Below are positions 33,733 to 41,318 of a stretch of DNA of 64,000 nucleotides, one piece after another. The stretch is from NCBI RefSeq assembly GCF_000739695.1, contig NZ_BBIO01000002.1, positions 1 through 64,000 of the forward strand, read 5' to 3'. Below the pieces are notes generated by a model that had not been told where the DNA came from, ran no database searches, and worked only from the letters and a program-made list of their open reading frames with translations. Position numbers and translations under genes: made by a program. The stretch's first letter is position 1. The number at the start of each line of letters is the position of its first letter. Source of the stretch: Tepidicaulis marinus. Its GTDB lineage: Bacteria; Pseudomonadota; Alphaproteobacteria; Parvibaculales; Parvibaculaceae.

Positions 33733-33777
33733 ATGACCGGCTATGACAAACCCTATTCCGGGCGGGGCGCGCAATGA
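33733..33777 (+). CDS. 14-residue leader ORF coupled to the phosphotransferase gene
   Basis: ATG at 33733 follows GGGGAGGATAAAAA, the best ribosome binding site in this operon, and encodes MTGYDKPYSGRGAQ before TGA. The stop overlaps the phosphotransferase ATG as ATGA (33774-33777). The phosphotransferase itself has only GGGGCGCGC upstream. This looks like a translation-coupling leader rather than chance. No attenuator hairpin is evident. Confidence 0.55.
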   Translation: MTGYDKPYSGRGAQ

Positions 33778-34778
33778 GCAAGGGCGAAGAAGAACTTGCA
33801 CAGGGCCTTGCGAGGGTGATGGGCCAAAAGGCCGGCGCGCTGAAGGGCATCGAGAATCTCAACCGCCTGTCGGGCGGCGCAAGCCAGGAAACATGGGCCT
33901 TTGACGGCATAACGGCGGATGGACCCCTGCCGCTCATTCTGCGCCGCGCGCCGGGGGGAACAGCGGCTTCGAAGCGGGAAACCGCCGTGCCGCTTGCCAC
34001 CGAAGCTGCCCTCATCCGGCTGGCGGAAAAGGCCGGTGTGCCAGTGCCCCCCGTGCGCTATGTGCTCGATGAGGAAGACGGGCTCGGCCCCGGTTTCGTG
34101 ATGGACCGGGTGGAGGGCGAAACCATCGCCCGGAAAATCCTGCGCGATGACGCCTATAAGGCCGCCCGCCCGAAGCTCGCCCGCCAATGCGGGGAAATTC
34201 TAGCAAAGCTCCATTCCGTGCCGATGGACACGCTGCCGGAGCTGCGCCATTCCCCGGCCGCTGCCGAGATCAAGCAATATTGGGAAACCTATAAGACCCA
34301 CGGCCATCCCCACCCCGTCTTCGAGCTTGCCTTCAAATGGCTCAGGGACAATGTGCCGGCGGAAGACCGCATTACCCTTGTCCATGGCGACTTCCGGAAC
34401 GGCAATTTGATGATCGGGGAAGACGGCGTGCGCGCCGTGCTCGATTGGGAGCTCGCGCATACGGGCGACCCGATGGAAGATCTCGGCTGGATCTGCGTCA
34501 ATTCCTGGCGCTTCGGCAATATCGACCAGCCGGTTGGCGGCTTCGGCCAGCGCGAGGAGATGTTTGCAGGCTATGAAGCGGCGGGCGGCCCGCCTGTCGA
34601 TCCCGAGCGGGTGCGGTTCTGGGAAATTCTCGGTACGCTGAAATGGGGCATCATGTGCACACTGATGTATGAAGCCTTCAAGACGGGCATGGACCGCTCC
34701 GTCGAACGCGCCGCCATTGGCCGGCGCTCGTCAGAAACTGAGATCGATCTCCTTCACCTTTTGCTGCCACGGAGCTGA
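33774..34778 (+). CDS. LvaA/ACAD10-like phosphotransferase family protein
   Basis: A 334-residue APH-fold kinase. The catalytic loop is VHGDFRNGNLM (about residues 203-213) and the Mg-binding DWELAHTGDP follows. The related Pseudomonas LvaA phosphorylates 4-hydroxyacyl-CoA during levulinate breakdown and needs a small partner, LvaB; the ACAD10/11 kinase domains in animals act similarly. Here a DUF6285 protein of LvaB-like size follows after 3 bp, then an enoyl-CoA hydratase. A role in hydroxyacyl-CoA catabolism is therefore inferred; the acyl-CoA-dehydrogenase-like third component (LvaC) is not in the window. Confidence 0.85.
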   Translation: MSKGEEELAQGLARVMGQKAGALKGIENLNRLSGGASQETWAFDGITADGPLPLILRRAPGGTAASKRETAVPLATEAALIRLAEKAGVPVPPVRYVLDEEDGLGPGFVMDRVEGETIARKILRDDAYKAARPKLARQCGEILAKLHSVPMDTLPELRHSPAAAEIKQYWETYKTHGHPHPVFELAFKWLRDNVPAEDRITLVHGDFRNGNLMIGEDGVRAVLDWELAHTGDPMEDLGWICVNSWRFGNIDQPVGGFGQREEMFAGYEAAGGPPVDPERVRFWEILGTLKWGIMCTLMYEAFKTGMDRSVERAAIGRRSSETEIDLLHLLLPRS

Positions 34779-34781
34779 GCC

Positions 34782-35156
34782 ATGCAGGACATGCCCAAAT
34801 CATCAGAAATCGTGGAAGTCGTGAGTGAATTCATGCGCCAGCATGTGCTGCCTCAATTGCAGGGCCATACAGCTTTCCACGCGCTTGTCGCCGCCAATGC
34901 GCTCGATATCGTCAAGCGAGAGCTCGCCATCGCGCCGGAGGCGAATGAAGCTGAAAAGGCGCGGCTTGAAAAACTGCTGGGCCGGGAAGGCACGCTTGAA
35001 GAATTGAACCGGCTCCTTTGCGCGCGTATCGAGGCGGGCGATGTCACCGTGGAAACACCCGGCCTTGCCGATCATCTTTGGGAGACGACGCTGACGAAGC
35101 TTGCCATCGATCAGCCGAAATATTCCGGCTACCGGCGCGCCAAAGGAGAAATCTAA
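34782..35156 (+). CDS. DUF6285 protein, LvaB-like partner
   Basis: A 124-residue mostly helical protein of DUF6285 (VVSEFMRQHVLPQLQGHTAF, then VAANALDIVKRELAI, ending LAIDQPKYSGYRRAK). DUF6285 genes usually sit beside APH-type phosphotransferases and acyl-CoA dehydrogenases. By position and size it corresponds to LvaB, which is required with LvaA for 4-hydroxyacyl-CoA phosphorylation; this equivalence is my inference. It lies 3 bp after the kinase gene and 11 bp before the hydratase gene. Confidence 0.85.
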   Translation: MQDMPKSSEIVEVVSEFMRQHVLPQLQGHTAFHALVAANALDIVKRELAIAPEANEAEKARLEKLLGREGTLEELNRLLCARIEAGDVTVETPGLADHLWETTLTKLAIDQPKYSGYRRAKGEI

Positions 35157-35167
35157 CGGAGGGCCAC

Positions 35168-35980
35168 ATGGCGCTTGTTACGGAAAGACGCGAGAAATCC
35201 GCCGCCATCATCACCTTCGCCAATCCGCCCCGCGGCTATATGAATGCGGCGCAGGTAAGCGAACTTGGTGTGCTGATTGAGAATATCGAGACAGATGCCA
35301 GCGTGCGCACGGTAATCTTTACCGGCGGTGTGCCCGGCGTATTTATCCGCCACTACGATGTGGGAGATATTCTGGAGGCGGCAGGGGCGGTGCGTAAATC
35401 GGGCTTCGATGGCGATGCGCTTATGGAAGCGGGCAAGCGCGGCAATCCCATCTCACAGCTTTTCGACAAGATCGATCGCTTGAGCAAACCCACGATCGCC
35501 GCAATCAACGGATATTGTCAGGGCGGCGGCTTTGAATTCGCACTTTGCTGCGATATCCGCGTAGCCGAAGAAGGCGATTACCGCATCGGTTTGCCGGAAA
35601 CCAATGTCGGCATCTTTCCGGGTGCAGGCGGCACGCAGCGCCTGCCCCGCGTCATCGGCGAGGCAAAGGCGCTCGAACTGATCTTAAAAGGCGAAACGCT
35701 GCCGCCGCAGGAAGCCGCTAACGTGGGGCTTGTCCATGAATTCGTGCCTGTGGGCGGCGCGCTTACCCGGGCATTGGAGCTTGCGGAAAACTTCGCCGCC
35801 AAGACCCCGCGCGCCCTGGCGGAGGCCAAACATCTGGTCAAACAGGCCGCCAGGGGACCCTTGCCGGAAGGTTGTGCCGAAGAGCGCGGGCGCTTTTCCC
35901 GGCTGCTTTTGGAAGATGACGAGGCCCTGCGCCTTATGCAAAACTTCCAAAACGGAAATCAGGATATCAACAAGGCGTAA
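35168..35980 (+). CDS. enoyl-CoA hydratase/isomerase
   Basis: A 270-residue crotonase. Unlike the crotonase near position 4000, both catalytic glutamates are in place (GYCQGGGFEFALCCD and GLPETNVGIFPGAGGTQRL). It should hydrate 2-enoyl-CoA to 3-hydroxyacyl-CoA, the step expected after a hydroxyacyl-CoA kinase/dehydrogenase module. ACGGAGGGCCAC precedes the ATG. A DUF3089 gene follows 6 bp later. Confidence 0.9.
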   Translation: MALVTERREKSAAIITFANPPRGYMNAAQVSELGVLIENIETDASVRTVIFTGGVPGVFIRHYDVGDILEAAGAVRKSGFDGDALMEAGKRGNPISQLFDKIDRLSKPTIAAINGYCQGGGFEFALCCDIRVAEEGDYRIGLPETNVGIFPGAGGTQRLPRVIGEAKALELILKGETLPPQEAANVGLVHEFVPVGGALTRALELAENFAAKTPRALAEAKHLVKQAARGPLPEGCAEERGRFSRLLLEDDEALRLMQNFQNGNQDINKA

Positions 35981-35986
35981 GCGATT

Positions 35987-37105
35987 ATGTTCAGGAAGTT
36001 TGTGTACGGGCTGGCTGCCCTTCTGGTCGTCGGCGCAATTGCCGTTCTTTATCTTTCCATGAACCCCGATGTCGCCCAGCGGCTGTTCCTGAAACCGGAT
36101 GGGCCTTTCGATGTGGCGAGCGCCCCGCCCGCGCCCGATTACAAGCTGCCCGAAAGCTGGGCCTCCCTGCCCGATAGGAAAGACCCTGCCGACACGCTCA
36201 TCCCCGCAAGCGGCTACCGGGACGGCCAGGCCGAAGCGCAAGTCGATGTCTTCTTCATTCATCCCACCACCTATTACAGCAAGGACAGCTGGAATGCGGC
36301 TTATGACGAGGATGGGGAGACGCGCGAACTTTTGGAGGCCGGTGTGCTGCGCTTCCAGGCCAGTGCCTTTAACGGCGATGCGCGCATCTATGCGCCGCGC
36401 TACCGCCAAGCCACACTCTATTCTTTCATGGGTGACGGGGAAGACGAACAGAAGGCGCTCGCTTTCGCCTATGAAGATGTCGCCCGCGCCTTCCGCCACT
36501 TTATCGAAACCTATAATCGGGGCCGTCCCTTTATTCTGGCTGCGCATAGCCAGGGTTCGCTGCATGGCATGAGGCTTTTGCAGGAACGTATTGCCGGCAC
36601 GCCGCTCGCAAACCGCATGGTGGCGGCTTATCTTGTCGGCTATTCGATCCCCGAAGATATGGGGCGCGATGATTTGCGCCCCTGCGCAAAGGCTTACAGC
36701 ACGGGCTGCTACCTCAACTGGAATTCCATCAGCGCGGAAGCGGACCGGAACGGCTGGACGCAAGACAACAAGATTTGGCTGAACGGCGAAATGACGACCA
36801 TGGCCGGCCACCGGCTTACCTGCGTTAATCCCCTGACCGGAACCAAGGACGGCAAGGCCGACGCGAAGAAAAATCTGGGCGGTCTCCCCTTCGCTGAAGC
36901 AGATAAAGAGATGCCTGAACTCATTCCTAGCGTCAGCGATGCAGCCTGTGAAGACGGGGTTCTTATCGTTAATCCGGACGAAGACAGAGGTGATTTTTCC
37001 TACGGCGTCTTCGACGGAGACTTCCACATTTACGATTACAACTTGTTTTATGCGAATATTAGGCAAGACATCCGCACACGAATTGGTGCATTCTGGAAAA
37101 GATGA
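35987..37105 (+). CDS. DUF3089 alpha/beta-hydrolase-like membrane-anchored protein
   Basis: A 372-residue protein with one N-terminal membrane helix (residues about 5-25) and a large extracytoplasmic domain. The blocks VDVFFIHPTTYY, FILAAHSQGSLHGMRLL (GxSxG-like nucleophile) and LTCVNPLTG match DUF3089, a family of predicted lipases/esterases. It is the last gene of the operon that starts with the 14-residue leader. Substrate unknown. Confidence 0.85.
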   Translation: MFRKFVYGLAALLVVGAIAVLYLSMNPDVAQRLFLKPDGPFDVASAPPAPDYKLPESWASLPDRKDPADTLIPASGYRDGQAEAQVDVFFIHPTTYYSKDSWNAAYDEDGETRELLEAGVLRFQASAFNGDARIYAPRYRQATLYSFMGDGEDEQKALAFAYEDVARAFRHFIETYNRGRPFILAAHSQGSLHGMRLLQERIAGTPLANRMVAAYLVGYSIPEDMGRDDLRPCAKAYSTGCYLNWNSISAEADRNGWTQDNKIWLNGEMTTMAGHRLTCVNPLTGTKDGKADAKKNLGGLPFAEADKEMPELIPSVSDAACEDGVLIVNPDEDRGDFSYGVFDGDFHIYDYNLFYANIRQDIRTRIGAFWKR

Positions 37106-37157: not shown

Positions 37158-37664
37158 ATGCCTCTTCGCCCCAAAACGCTGTCGCCTTCCGATATTCATC
37201 CGGCTCATCCCGTCGGCGTATTCTTGAGCTATTACCGTGCGCTTGCCGACGAACGCGGTTTCCTGTTGCGCGAACGGTTCGATCCGTCGCGGGTATCCGG
37301 TGTGTTGGGCTGGCTTCTCGTCTTTGAAAATGTCTATGACGGACAAACCGAGAGCTATCTGTGCACTTTATGCGGCGCCAGCGCGGGCGATCTTTTCGGT
37401 TATGATTATACCGGTAACTTGCTGGGGGAAGTCATGCCCCGCCAGGCGGCGGAATGGCGCATCGAGGAATTTCGAAATGTCACTGAAACGGCGCGCCCCA
37501 GTTTGACGCGGGCTAGCCTGCCGAATGCCGAGCGCGATTTCATCACCCTTATCCGCGGCGTCTTTCCGGTTTCCAAATCCGCCACACACGTGGATGAAAT
37601 TATGCTTGTCGCCGCACCGGAAGAAATACGCGTTTCGTTTTATGGAGGAACACACGGCCATTAA
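37158..37664 (+). CDS. PAS-domain-only protein (first of tandem pair)
   Basis: A 168-residue protein consisting of one PAS_5-type domain (LGWLLVFENV, YLCTLCGASAGDLFGYDYTG, FITLIRGVFPV) with no output domain. AAGGA lies 9 nt before the ATG. The next gene encodes a paralogue with the same layout, and the two reading frames overlap (TAATG at 37662-37666). Such single-domain proteins may bind a ligand or signal by protein contact. No kinase or cyclase gene is nearby. Confidence 0.82.
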   Translation: MPLRPKTLSPSDIHPAHPVGVFLSYYRALADERGFLLRERFDPSRVSGVLGWLLVFENVYDGQTESYLCTLCGASAGDLFGYDYTGNLLGEVMPRQAAEWRIEEFRNVTETARPSLTRASLPNAERDFITLIRGVFPVSKSATHVDEIMLVAAPEEIRVSFYGGTHGH

Positions 37665-37677
37665 TGACTTGGCGAAA

Positions 37678-37706
37678 GTTGCAACCTATACTCGTTGCAA
37701 TATGCA
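37678..37706 (+). promoter_or_regulatory. possible promoter/operator before second PAS gene
   Basis: GTTGCAAC (37678-37685, itself palindromic) recurs as GTTGCAA at 37694-37700. TTGCAA (37679-37684) and TATGCA (37701-37706), 16 bp apart, could form a -35/-10 pair for the gene at 37724. Confidence 0.35.
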
Positions 37707-37723
37707 CATACAGTCAAAAAACC

Positions 37724-38206
37724 ATGGTTCTTAATCCAGTCCCACTGGACGCGCTTGACCCCAAACACCCCGTCGCGGTCTATGCGCATTATCATAAAGC
37801 CAAACAGGGCATGGAAGATGTTCTGCTTAAGGACAATTTCGATCCGATCGATTTGCCCAGAGTGATCCCCTGGATGCTCATCCTGGATAAGATCGGCCGG
37901 CCGGAACATCCGGACTTCCTTTACCGGCTGGCAGGCACCGGGTGCCGGGAGATATTCGGGATCGATTATACGGGTAAGCTCCTGGGGGATGATTTGCCCC
38001 CTGCCGCCGCCGACGAGCGGCGCGAGGAAATTCTTGGCGTGATGGAAAGCAAAGCGCCGAGCATTACCCGAACGGAAATTCCTCTGGCAGGCCGGGAGTT
38101 CATCACCATTATTCGCGGTGTATTCGCGGTCTCTAGCAGCGGCAAGGCCGTTGACCGTATCCACATTATCATTGCTCCGGAAGATCAACGCGTCGGCAAT
38201 ACGTAA
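37724..38206 (+). CDS. PAS-domain-only protein (second of tandem pair)
   Basis: A 160-residue paralogue of the preceding protein (ALDPKHPVAVYAHYHKA, then YRLAGTGCREIFGIDYTGKLLGD and FITIIRGVFAV). I chose ATG 37724 because the product then aligns from its first residue with the upstream copy; an in-frame ATG at 37664 that overlaps the preceding stop would add 20 residues. It ends at a strong bidirectional terminator. Confidence 0.8.
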   Translation: MVLNPVPLDALDPKHPVAVYAHYHKAKQGMEDVLLKDNFDPIDLPRVIPWMLILDKIGRPEHPDFLYRLAGTGCREIFGIDYTGKLLGDDLPPAAADERREEILGVMESKAPSITRTEIPLAGREFITIIRGVFAVSSSGKAVDRIHIIIAPEDQRVGNT

Positions 38207-38257: not shown

Positions 38258-39460
38258 TTAGACGCCTTCGAGCCCGACAATCGCGACCGAGCAAACATTC
38301 TGCGACGGCGAGCCGCCCAGATTGTGGGTCAGGCCGATCTTCGGATTGGCAAGCTGGCGCTCACCGGCGCGGCCCTGGAGCTGCAGATACATCTCATAGG
38401 CCATGCGCAGCCCGCTCGCCCCGATCGGGTGGCCGAAACATTTCAGCCCGCCATCGATCTGGCAAGGAACCGAACCGCTGGAATCGTAAAACCCGTCCAT
38501 CACGTCTTTCACCGCGCCGCCCTCGGGCGAAATGAAAAGGTCTTCCATCGTGACAAGCTCCGTGATCGAGAAACAGTCATGCACCTCGATCATGGAAACT
38601 TCCTCGCGCGGCTTTTCGATACCGGCTTCCTGATAGGCTTTCTTGGCGGCGATGCGCGCCGTGTGGAAGTAGGAGCCGTCCCAGGAATTGTGCTGGGATT
38701 CCAGACCGTTCGACACGGAAAGCTGCATGGCTTTGATCGTCACGAGGTCCTTCTTGCCCATTGCCTTGGCGATTTCCGGCGTGGTGACGATGGCCGCGGC
38801 CGCCCCGTCCGAAACGCCGCAGCAATCGAAAAGGCCGAGCGGTTCGGCGATCATCGGCGCGTTGAGCGCCTGATCTTCAGAAATCTCGTTGCGTAGATGC
38901 GCCTTAGGGTTCTTCGAGCCGTTGGCATGGCTCTTGACCGAAACATGGGCGATGGCGCGTTTCAGGTCTTCTTTCGCAATGCCGTGCTTTGCCCGGTAGG
39001 CGGAAGCAAGCTGCGCAAAATTGCCCGGCGCGGAACCGTTCGGCGCCCATTGCGGATTGAGTGTGCCAGGATTGGAAACGGGAAGCCCGCCATAACCCGT
39101 GTCCTTCAGCTTTTCGACACCGAGCGCGAGCGCGATATCCGCGGCGCCCGAGGCAACGGCATAAACCGCGCCGCGCAGAGCTTCGGAACCCGAAGCGCAG
39201 AAGTTCTCAACGCGCGTCACGGCGATATTCGGCAGGCGCAGCGCGAGCGAAAGCGGTGTGCCACCCTTGCCGGTGCCGATCTCATCGATATGGGTGGAGA
39301 ACCAGGCCGCGTCGAGCTGCGTCGGCTCGATGCCGGCATCCTGCATCGCCTCCAGATAGGCTTCCACCATCAGTTCTTCCGGGCCGGTGTCCCAGCGCTC
39401 GCCGAATTTCGAGCATCCCATGCCCAGAATTGCGACCTTATCTTTGATACCACGTGCCAT
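38258..39460 (-). CDS. thiolase family protein (SCP2/acetyl-CoA acetyltransferase type)
   Basis: A 400-residue thiolase. The nucleophilic cysteine is in VENFCASGSEALRGA (about residue 88), and the HDCFSITE and CFGHPIGASGLRMAYE blocks supply the other active-site residues. It is of the lipid-transfer-protein/SCP2 thiolase type, which often works with DUF35 partners. The gene upstream on the same strand (42 bp away) encodes an HMGS-DUF35 fusion, so the two products probably form a complex handling acetoacetyl-CoA-like or sterol side-chain substrates. Confidence 0.92.
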   Translation of the reverse strand: MARGIKDKVAILGMGCSKFGERWDTGPEELMVEAYLEAMQDAGIEPTQLDAAWFSTHIDEIGTGKGGTPLSLALRLPNIAVTRVENFCASGSEALRGAVYAVASGAADIALALGVEKLKDTGYGGLPVSNPGTLNPQWAPNGSAPGNFAQLASAYRAKHGIAKEDLKRAIAHVSVKSHANGSKNPKAHLRNEISEDQALNAPMIAEPLGLFDCCGVSDGAAAAIVTTPEIAKAMGKKDLVTIKAMQLSVSNGLESQHNSWDGSYFHTARIAAKKAYQEAGIEKPREEVSMIEVHDCFSITELVTMEDLFISPEGGAVKDVMDGFYDSSGSVPCQIDGGLKCFGHPIGASGLRMAYEMYLQLQGRAGERQLANPKIGLTHNLGGSPSQNVCSVAIVGLEGV

Positions 39461-39501
39461 GTTTCTCTCCCTTTGGGTGCCAGTATTGGTAAACCGGTCG
39501 C

Positions 39502-41013
39502 TTATTCGGCGGCCTGGCCTGTGCTTTGGCCCGTTGCTTGACCTGTTGCGGAAGAGCGAACGGGAACCGCCTTCCAGAAATAGCGTTTGAAGCCGCGCTT
39601 CTCGTCCACGTCTTTGACGCGGAAAACCATCTTCACTTCCATGCCGGACTCAACTTCGCCCGGCGCGACATCGGTAATGTCCATGAAAATGCGCCCGCCG
39701 CCGTCGAAGACGATCATGCCGTAATGGTTGGGTGGTGACATGGAGAAAGTCAGATAGTCCGCCGACCAGGAAAGGATCGAGGCTTTCCGCTCGGCGAACT
39801 TATATGGCTCCTGCGTGTCGACGGCCGGATTGTTAGGGTTCACGGAAATGCGTGAGCGCGGAAACTGCACATTGCCCGTCTCCGTGCAGCGCCCGCCGAC
39901 GAGACCGAGGATCATGTCCTCATTGCGGTAAAGCGTGGTGAGTGCGGTTTTCTTGTCCTGCTCCGCGCGCATGCCTTTTTCCCACTCGACAAGTCCGTTA
40001 AAGGTCAGGAACTTCATGTAGTTGGTTTCTTCCTGACGGTCGGCGAGCGAGCCGGTAATGCCGCGCCGGTCATCCATGCTGGAAAGCTTGTCCGTCGTCT
40101 CGAAGATGAGCGCATCCGCGCCGCCGCCGAATTGCGCCACGAGGATTTTCTCACCGGGCTTTGCTTCCTGCAGCGCATGAACCAGCATGACGAGGCCGTG
40201 GGCCGCGCCCGTTTCCCCGCAATTGGCGGCGAGATTGTCCCGCACTTTTTCCGCCGGAATGCCGAGCTTCTTGGCAACCGATTGAGGCACTTTGGGCAGG
40301 GTGCACGGCAGAATGAAGTGATCGATGTCACTGGCCTCAAGGCCTGCCTCTTTCAGCGCGCCTTCCACGGCCTGAGGGATAATTTTCAGATAGCCCTCGT
40401 CACGGATCCAGCGCTCTTCCCAATTATAGTCGAACTCTTCATGGGCGCCGCGGAAGTGGTCGACGAAATCCACGGTCAGCGAGTGCGCGCCGAGAAACTT
40501 CGCAATGACGTTCTCAGAGCCGACGCTGAGCGCCGCCGCTCCGTCGCCGAAATCAAGCTCTTGCGGGCTCACAGCCCGGGCTTTGCGCTTGTCGGAGGCA
40601 AGCACCAGTGCATTCTTGGCGGCGCCCGCCTTTGCCGCGTGAAGTGCCTGCAAGAGCGCGCTCGTCCCCGCCCGCTGAGTGGAGGTGATGTCCACAGCCT
40701 GAATGCCTTTCTCAAGGGTGAGTGCGGCGGAAATAATCCCCGCATTCAACCGGTCGGCGAAAGGCTGGGTCGTCGTGCCGAAATAAAGCGCATCGACATG
40801 AGAGCGGTCGTCATCCGGGCCCAGAAGATCGCGCGCCGCTTCCACGGCCATGGTGATCGTGTCTTCGTCCCAATTCGCCATGGACCTCTCGCCCTTACCC
40901 TTCCCGGCAAGGTTGGGCGCCACCCAGGCATTGGCCGTGGTAATTGCTTTGCGCTGCAGACGCAGGCGCGGAATATAGCCGCCCAGCGCGGTAAGCCCGA
41001 TTTCTCCGCTCAT
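39502..41013 (-). CDS. HMG-CoA-synthase-like protein fused to DUF35 OB-fold domain
   Basis: A 503-residue two-domain protein. Residues about 1-330 have the thiolase-superfamily fold of HMG-CoA synthase/KAS III (GLTALGGYIPRLRLQR; ELDFGDGAAAL; QFGGGADALIF). The position of the catalytic cysteine (ACxAGT in archaeal HMGS) is Gln113 in STQRAGTSAL. Residues about 345-485 form a DUF35 domain; its usual four-cysteine zinc ribbon is reduced to one cysteine (GGRCTETGN), while the OB fold (YGMIVFDGGGRIFMDITDV) is intact. The tail repeats TGQ. It is likely a scaffold or non-condensing partner of the adjacent thiolase. Confidence 0.88.
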   Translation of the reverse strand: MSGEIGLTALGGYIPRLRLQRKAITTANAWVAPNLAGKGKGERSMANWDEDTITMAVEAARDLLGPDDDRSHVDALYFGTTTQPFADRLNAGIISAALTLEKGIQAVDITSTQRAGTSALLQALHAAKAGAAKNALVLASDKRKARAVSPQELDFGDGAAALSVGSENVIAKFLGAHSLTVDFVDHFRGAHEEFDYNWEERWIRDEGYLKIIPQAVEGALKEAGLEASDIDHFILPCTLPKVPQSVAKKLGIPAEKVRDNLAANCGETGAAHGLVMLVHALQEAKPGEKILVAQFGGGADALIFETTDKLSSMDDRRGITGSLADRQEETNYMKFLTFNGLVEWEKGMRAEQDKKTALTTLYRNEDMILGLVGGRCTETGNVQFPRSRISVNPNNPAVDTQEPYKFAERKASILSWSADYLTFSMSPPNHYGMIVFDGGGRIFMDITDVAPGEVESGMEVKMVFRVKDVDEKRGFKRYFWKAVPVRSSATGQATGQSTGQAAE

Positions 41014-41318
41014 GACCGTTCTTCCCTGTTGTTGTTGGCCTTTTCCGACCGCTTTTCAGCCAGTTTAGCGGCATTTACGGGCGGGCGACAATATCGGCCC
41101 CGGGCGGGGTTTCCGGGCGTTCCGGCTTTGCGTCAAAGGGAAAGGAGACGCTGCGTCAAATAGGCATCTCGCCTTGAAGGGGCGACGGGGCACTCCATTT
41201 TCAAAGGATTCGCAGACAGCCTGTCCGTACAAATCTTAGCGGTTTGGTGAGGCGGATAGGGCAAGGTAAAATGAGAGTGATGAGGGCGCTTCGAGCCCTC
41301 TAACGGCAGCGGATCGAT
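41014..41318. other. 305-bp divergent intergenic region
   Basis: No gene is seen. CTTTGCGTCAAA and CTGCGTCAAA recur about 20 bp apart near 41130-41160. A small hairpin GAGGGC-N7-GCCCTC (41282-41300) sits 18 nt before the ybaN start. Confidence 0.4.

Follow-up and report, generated by a model that had tools for sequence, protein, structure and literature searches.

Two described systems combine a thiolase-fold enzyme, a synthase-like protein, and a DUF35 protein. In the archaeal complex, DUF35 holds the thiolase and 3-hydroxy-3-methylglutaryl coenzyme A (HMG-CoA) synthase (HMGCS) together, and the two enzymes share one CoA site (PMC12329534). In PhlABC, which like the archaeal complex is known to include a DUF35 subunit, the HMGCS-like subunit PhlA lacks the catalytic Cys (Gly115) and Glu (Cys83) and takes no direct part in acyl transfer. 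Contact with the substrate is made by PhlC alone, and the enzyme is functional only if all three genes are coexpressed (PMC6392133). Here we describe a gene pair of Tepidicaulis marinus (NCBI RefSeq assembly GCF_000739695.1) from the first 64,000 nucleotides (nt) of contig NZ_BBIO01000002.1. This whole stretch is called the window, and coordinates given without another locus are positions in it. Both genes lie on the minus strand; one encodes an SCP2-type thiolase and the other a fusion of an HMGCS-like domain with a DUF35 domain. The explanation that we consider likely is an active thiolase for which the fusion, a pseudo-HMGCS, serves as an obligate structural subunit.

A conserved pair of genes

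The fusion gene (39502..41013; 503 amino acids, presumed structural subunit) lies upstream of the thiolase gene (38258..39460; 400 amino acids, presumed active subunit), with 41 nt between the two open reading frames (ORFs). An earlier note, written from the DNA letters of this region, had described a thiolase adjoining a cysteine-less HMGCS/DUF35 fusion. That observation is confirmed: both ORFs are located exactly where it placed them, and their families were borne out by family models and an AlphaFold2 model for the fusion and by NCBIfam PRK06157, Protein Data Bank (PDB) relatives, and catalytic residues for the thiolase. Long ORFs on the opposite strand, such as 40132-41163 (+), appear to be shadow ORFs that come with high-GC coding DNA.

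The fusion is a single-copy gene in the T. marinus genome. It is 98% identical in the nearest named relative, Rhodobiaceae bacterium UBA4490, and orthologues at 73 to 98% identity occur in most relatives of its family, the Parvibaculaceae. We examined a sample of 288 alphaproteobacterial genomes for the full-length fusion and for a thiolase at least 63% identical. The fusion was found in 53 genomes and the thiolase in the same 53, while 235 genomes had neither. Because orthologues occur in most family relatives and both genes in 53 of the 288 genomes of the class, the gene arrangement is not a product of chance, and unless the two form a functional unit, exact co-occurrence across some 30 families is difficult to account for. 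Downstream of every fusion gene (57/57) there was a thiolase gene on the same strand, within 201 nt in 49 cases and within 2 kb in the remainder. Pairwise distances of the fusion and of the thiolase were closely correlated (r = 0.91; 99 pairs), and the paralogue pairs at 35% identity (loci L171, L172, L173, and L179) grouped together for both proteins.

Three of the 235 genomes without the fusion carried only a stand-alone HMGCS-like paralogue (L174, L175, and L176, in genomes G226, G306, and G131). These proteins have Pro at the Cys position, belong to a different clade, and are encoded next to a thiolase at 33 to 34% identity. A separate DUF35 gene was confirmed in one of the three (L174), the unfused form of the same plan.

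The HMGCS-like domain has lost its active site

The first domain of the fusion (approximately residues 1 to 340; 39994..41013) has an HMGCS/FabH-type thiolase fold but is catalytically degenerate. The model for archaeal-type HMG-CoA synthase, PRK04262, matches residues 4 to 340 with 209.8 bits, below its cutoff of 244, and TIGR00748 scores 145 bits against a cutoff of 353. We aligned the fusion to the archaeal HMGCS 6esq and to PhlA and tabulated the catalytic positions in 136 distinct homologues. As the earlier note had proposed, the catalytic Cys (FACKAGT in 6esq) is replaced by Gln113 (TSTQRAGT; codon CAG, 40675..40677), and the active-site His (VFHQP) is gone as well, the corresponding segment being ILPCT with Cys237 (40303..40305) at the His position. 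The catalytic Glu (SES), which the note had not mentioned, is likewise lost and is replaced by Thr81 (40771..40773).

Cys was never found at position 113 among the 136 homologues. The note had asked for the conservation of Gln113, and Gln turned out to be present in only 106 of them; the others had Leu (17), Met (4), Arg (4), Pro (3), Ile (1), or a gap (1), with Leu or Ile characterizing the PS1/OCS116 group. Position 81 was Thr in 132 homologues, and position 237 varied among Cys, Ser, Ala, Thr, Val, Gly, and others but was never His. All three catalytic residues of HMGCS are thus gone in every fusion homologue examined, and none has a conserved replacement. The Cys and the Glu are also absent from plasmid homologues, including those of Rhodococcus, Mycobacterium, Streptomyces, and haloarchaea, and since these residues are missing from homologues throughout, loss of the active site was an early event. 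A different cysteine with the catalytic role would have told against the note, but in 34 diverse sequences Cys237 was only 26% conserved and Cys265 only 38%, which rules out both as substitutes.

The fold and the DUF35 domain

For the fusion, AlphaFold2 gave a model of high confidence (pLDDT, 87.8; pTM, 0.90). The HMGCS-like domain matches the archaeal HMGCS 6esq/6et9 with a TMt of 0.88 to 0.89 and PhlA (9skh, 5mg5) with a TMt of 0.84, and MucABC (9vbo, 9vbt) is a further structural match. These best solved matches are all members of multicomponent complexes. WEERWIRDEG (residues 198 to 207; 40393..40422) ranks among the fusion's most conserved peptides; it is 90% conserved and begins in the least confident part of the modeled HMGCS-like domain (residues 181 to 200; block pLDDT, 65 and 52). 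Because it is highly conserved yet starts in a poorly modeled stretch, this segment may become ordered only within a complex, and we regard it as a candidate partner-binding interface.

The DUF35 domain (approximately residues 371 to 486; 39556..39903) was recognized by an OB_ChsH2_C (PF01796) match at residues 407 to 465 (36.8 bits; cutoff, 27.1), and the strand pattern of the OB fold is also present in the AlphaFold2 model. The zinc ribbon, a rubredoxin-like Cys4 site, is reduced to a single cysteine, Cys376. The earlier note was right on this point for the T. marinus protein, but the loss is clade specific: 42 of the 136 homologues keep a ribbon Cys at position 379 and 42 keep one at position 395, and more distant orthologues still have the ribbon, for example L032, which is scored as one. 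Loss of the ribbon is observed for the Parvibaculaceae, Caulobacter, and PS1, and in these branches the gene pair is not disrupted.

The thiolase keeps its catalytic residues

The downstream gene scores 710 bits with the NCBIfam equivalog PRK06157 (cutoff, 403), and its PDB relatives are 7yvy and the thiolase of 6esq. SCP2 thiolases carry HDCF and a nucleophilic Cys, whereas the steroid aldolases Sal and Ltp2 carry YDCY/YDHF, and Sal has Gly in place of the Cys (PMC12329534). The T. marinus protein has the nucleophilic Cys88 in ENFCASG (39197..39199), the SCP2-thiolase signature HDCF rather than YDxF (His294-Asp-Cys296-Phe, residues 294 to 297; 38570..38581), and His344 in a Gly-His-Pro (GHP) motif, and all of these are invariant in 101 of 101 thiolase sequences. 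Because Cys88 and HDCF/GHP are invariant and the aldolases carry YDxF and, in Sal, Gly, the protein is by its residues a thiolase and not an aldolase.

Gene contexts of homologous pairs

The genome of T. marinus has no detected HMG-CoA reductase, and a role of the pair in the mevalonate pathway is for this reason ruled out. In two homologous loci (L182 and L186), an acetoacetate-CoA ligase gene lies directly downstream of the pair, which indicates acetoacetyl-CoA as the substrate there. Elsewhere the neighbors include acyl-CoA dehydrogenases, enoyl-CoA hydratases, MaoC hydratases, dehydrogenases, CoA ligases, and transferases. Since these acyl-CoA catabolic contexts differ among loci, the family seems to cut various 3-oxoacyl-CoAs; for the T. 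marinus thiolase, a short or medium 3-oxoacyl-CoA is our guess.

One homologous pair, from Novosphingobium sp. ES2-1 (L210), lies in a cluster whose layout resembles that of the edc estrogen degradation cluster. Its fusion has the same architecture and the same lost residues and is ∼32% identical to that of T. marinus. In the edc cluster, the thiolase and HMG-CoA synthase genes are EGO55_13550 and EGO55_13555, and the HMG-CoA synthase was given no step by the authors (PMC7793797); our comparison was made with strain ES2-1, not with N. tardaugens itself. Beside the pair, at positions 13508-15099 of L210, the ES2-1 locus also encodes another lipid-transfer protein, one that lacks the Cys and is accompanied by a DUF35 protein of its own; it resembles the aldolase of the same pathway.

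A proposed structural subunit of the thiolase

The thiolase, HMGCS-like, and DUF35 components are all encoded together in this locus, as they are in the archaeal complex and in PhlABC. Among the roles that the earlier note had considered for the fusion, that of a pure scaffold is the best supported, by the residues lost from the fusion, the residues kept in the thiolase, the strict co-occurrence, and the correlated distances; its decarboxylase and aldolase alternatives are not supported, and as a whole its interpretation is partly supported. We propose that the two genes give rise to one enzyme of two polypeptides, in which the thiolase would be the only catalytic subunit. Cys88 would accept the acyl group from a 3-oxoacyl-CoA, either acetoacetyl-CoA or one with a related chain; HDCF and His344 would perform the acid-base work, and the products would be acetyl-CoA and a shortened acyl-CoA, unless the reaction runs in reverse. 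The OB domain of DUF35 is predicted to dock onto the thiolase and to buttress the wall of its active site. Held by a short covalent linker, the HMGCS-like domain would take the place occupied by HMG-CoA synthase in archaea and by PhlA in PhlABC, giving stability to the oligomer and probably forming part of a shared CoA/substrate cavity, with no chemistry of its own.

Several points limit this proposal. Co-occurrence and covariation are partly due to shared ancestry. Three genomes of a single family carry an extra, orphan thiolase copy at 74% identity (L221, L222, and L223, in genomes G110, G213, and G297); no fusion gene is adjacent to it or was seen in the stretches covered, which suggests that some members may work alone. 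A single-chain model of fusion plus thiolase, built by reading through the stop codon of a same-frame orthologue (L056; 18 sequences), reached only a pLDDT of 69.5 and a pTM of 0.69, with the thiolase half poorly modeled, and is too poor to count as evidence on binding either way. Finally, the substrate is not fixed by the pair's own neighbors in the window.

In a variant of the same proposal, the pseudo-HMGCS domain would still bind CoA at the shared cavity and, as a gate or a chamber that holds the substrate, determine substrate size and direction for the thiolase. We consider this possible but doubtful. If it were true, an ancient biosynthetic channeling complex would have been turned into a catabolic thiolase family whose uses range from acetoacetate utilization to estrogen degradation in Proteobacteria, Actinobacteria, and haloarchaea.

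Other explanations for the fusion

Conservation outside the old active site could also mean that the HMGCS-like domain has acquired a new activity, as a lyase, a hydrolase, or a CoA-binding regulator. Asp49, Glu50, Asp51, Thr81, Glu199, and Arg201 are indeed invariant in the 34 diverse sequences and could provide the residues for it. However, the Asp-Glu-Asp stretch is common to PhlA and archaeal HMGCS and is for that reason probably structural, and the other conserved peptide starts where the model is poorly ordered, which would suit an interface. We therefore regard a new activity as improbable.

The resemblance of the first domain to PhlA, which is likewise Cys-less, and to the HMGCS-like subunit of MucABC, both among its closest structures, raises the question of whether the pair might be a C-acyltransferase that transfers acetyl to a non-CoA acceptor. 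The thiolase speaks against this, being far nearer to the archaeal acetoacetyl-CoA thiolase (186 bits) than to PhlC (61 to 68 bits) and keeping HDCF, as do the gene contexts, which are catabolic and linked to acyl-CoA; such an activity is very improbable.

Still less probable is a retro-aldolase pair of the kind formed by Ltp2-ChsH2 and Sal-Shy in steroid side chain degradation, which the earlier note had also entertained. Although DUF35 is here partnered with an SCP2-type thiolase fold and relatives occur within a steroid gene cluster, the Tyr base (YDxF/Y) and the missing Cys of the Ltp2/Sal aldolases are not what the thiolase shows, since Cys88 and H294-D-C-F are present in all 101 sequences, and the more aldolase-like pair in the ES2-1 locus is the separate Cys-less lipid-transfer protein with its separate DUF35 protein.

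Least likely of all is the remaining suggestion of the note, a KSQ-like decarboxylase in which the Gln113 fusion would act on a malonyl- or 3-oxoacyl-type thioester then used by the thiolase: loading-module KSQ domains show the same Cys-to-Gln change, and Gln is the commonest residue at position 113, but those domains keep their active-site His, and a reading that needs both Gln and His to be kept is unsupported where 29 homologues have Leu, Met, Arg, Pro, or Ile at position 113 and the His and Glu positions are noncatalytic in all 136.

Neighboring genes in the window

Convergent to the pair, a conserved block on the plus strand (33774-37105) encodes an APH-type kinase, a DUF6285 protein, an enoyl-CoA hydratase, and a DUF3089 hydrolase. 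In Parvibaculaceae, Caulobacterales, and PS1 relatives, the genes for the kinase and the DUF6285 protein are again found next to the pair, accompanied by a gene that, from reading its sequence, we take to be recG-like. APH-type kinases recall the ACAD10/11 4-hydroxyacyl-CoA kinases, and an ACAD10/11-like role of the block on 4-hydroxyacyl-CoA is possible. With recG in the same conserved block, however, this conservation may be plain synteny rather than a guide to the substrate. Between this block and the pair, adjacent genes at 37158-38206 (+) encode two small proteins that resemble each other. A PAS_5 domain is present in the second, and the first occurs beside the pair in 15 loci.

Implications

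Annotations of genes of this kind read HMG-CoA synthase, 3-oxoacyl-ACP synthase III, or hypothetical protein in organisms for which such a step makes no sense, and a dead, fused thiolase subunit would be one explanation for many of these annotations. It would also suggest a role for the HMG-CoA synthase without an assigned step in the estrogen degradation cluster. A further prediction is that expression of the thiolase without its partner will often yield an unstable or inactive protein, just as PhlABC needs all of its subunits together (PMC6392133). The fusion would then be a clear case of an enzyme domain retained as a pseudoenzyme across long evolution. We found no description of a fused, dead HMGCS-DUF35 thiolase subunit in the open literature that was searched, which omits most subscription journals.

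Comparison with known systems

Thiolase-fold enzymes with a DUF35 partner domain also occur in the Sal-Shy and Ltp2-ChsH2 aldolases and in the benzoylsuccinyl-CoA thiolase BbsAB, but these have no HMGCS-like domain, and the Sal and Ltp2 aldolases lost the nucleophilic Cys and the His that the T. marinus thiolase keeps. MucABC of Streptococcus macacae is a multicomponent acyltransferase whose HMGCS-like subunit matches the fusion; it acetylates tetramate in a natural-product cluster, and its subunits are separate. A Priestia megaterium plasmid (L218, 4998-7776) encodes a PhlA-like protein whose Cys position is occupied by Gly, a thiolase-like protein, and a DUF35 protein beside nonribosomal peptide synthetase (NRPS) genes, probably a muc-like set for tetramate acylation.

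The archaeal thiolase/HMGCS/DUF35 complex, with which the earlier note had compared the pair, is an apt comparison. It has the same three folds, and its thiolase and HMGCS match the T. marinus proteins with 186 and 98 bits, respectively. The note's description of DUF35 as passing acetoacetyl-CoA between the two enzymes was loose, as DUF35 holds them together and it is the CoA site that thiolase and HMGCS share (PMC12329534). Archaeal HMGCS still has its catalytic residues and supplies the mevalonate pathway; in T. marinus, in contrast, the HMGCS active site is gone, HMG-CoA reductase was not detected in the genome, and DUF35 is fused.

The closest precedent is PhlABC (PpATase, the diacetylphloroglucinol acyltransferase of Pseudomonas protegens; 5m3k, 5mg5, 9skh), in which an HMGCS-like subunit without Cys and Glu, a thiolase-like catalytic subunit (PhlC) with Cys88, and a DUF35 bridge work together (PMC6392133). 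PhlA is the best match, in sequence and structure, of the fusion's first domain. The parts of PhlABC are three separate proteins that acylate phenols in antibiotic biosynthesis, whereas in T. marinus the HMGCS-like and DUF35 domains are fused and the thiolase belongs to the SCP2/acetoacetyl-CoA type, with homologues in catabolic contexts. The plan of thiolase, HMGCS-like protein, and DUF35 is a known one, and what is new here is the proposed fused, dead HMGCS-DUF35 subunit of catabolic SCP2 thiolases.

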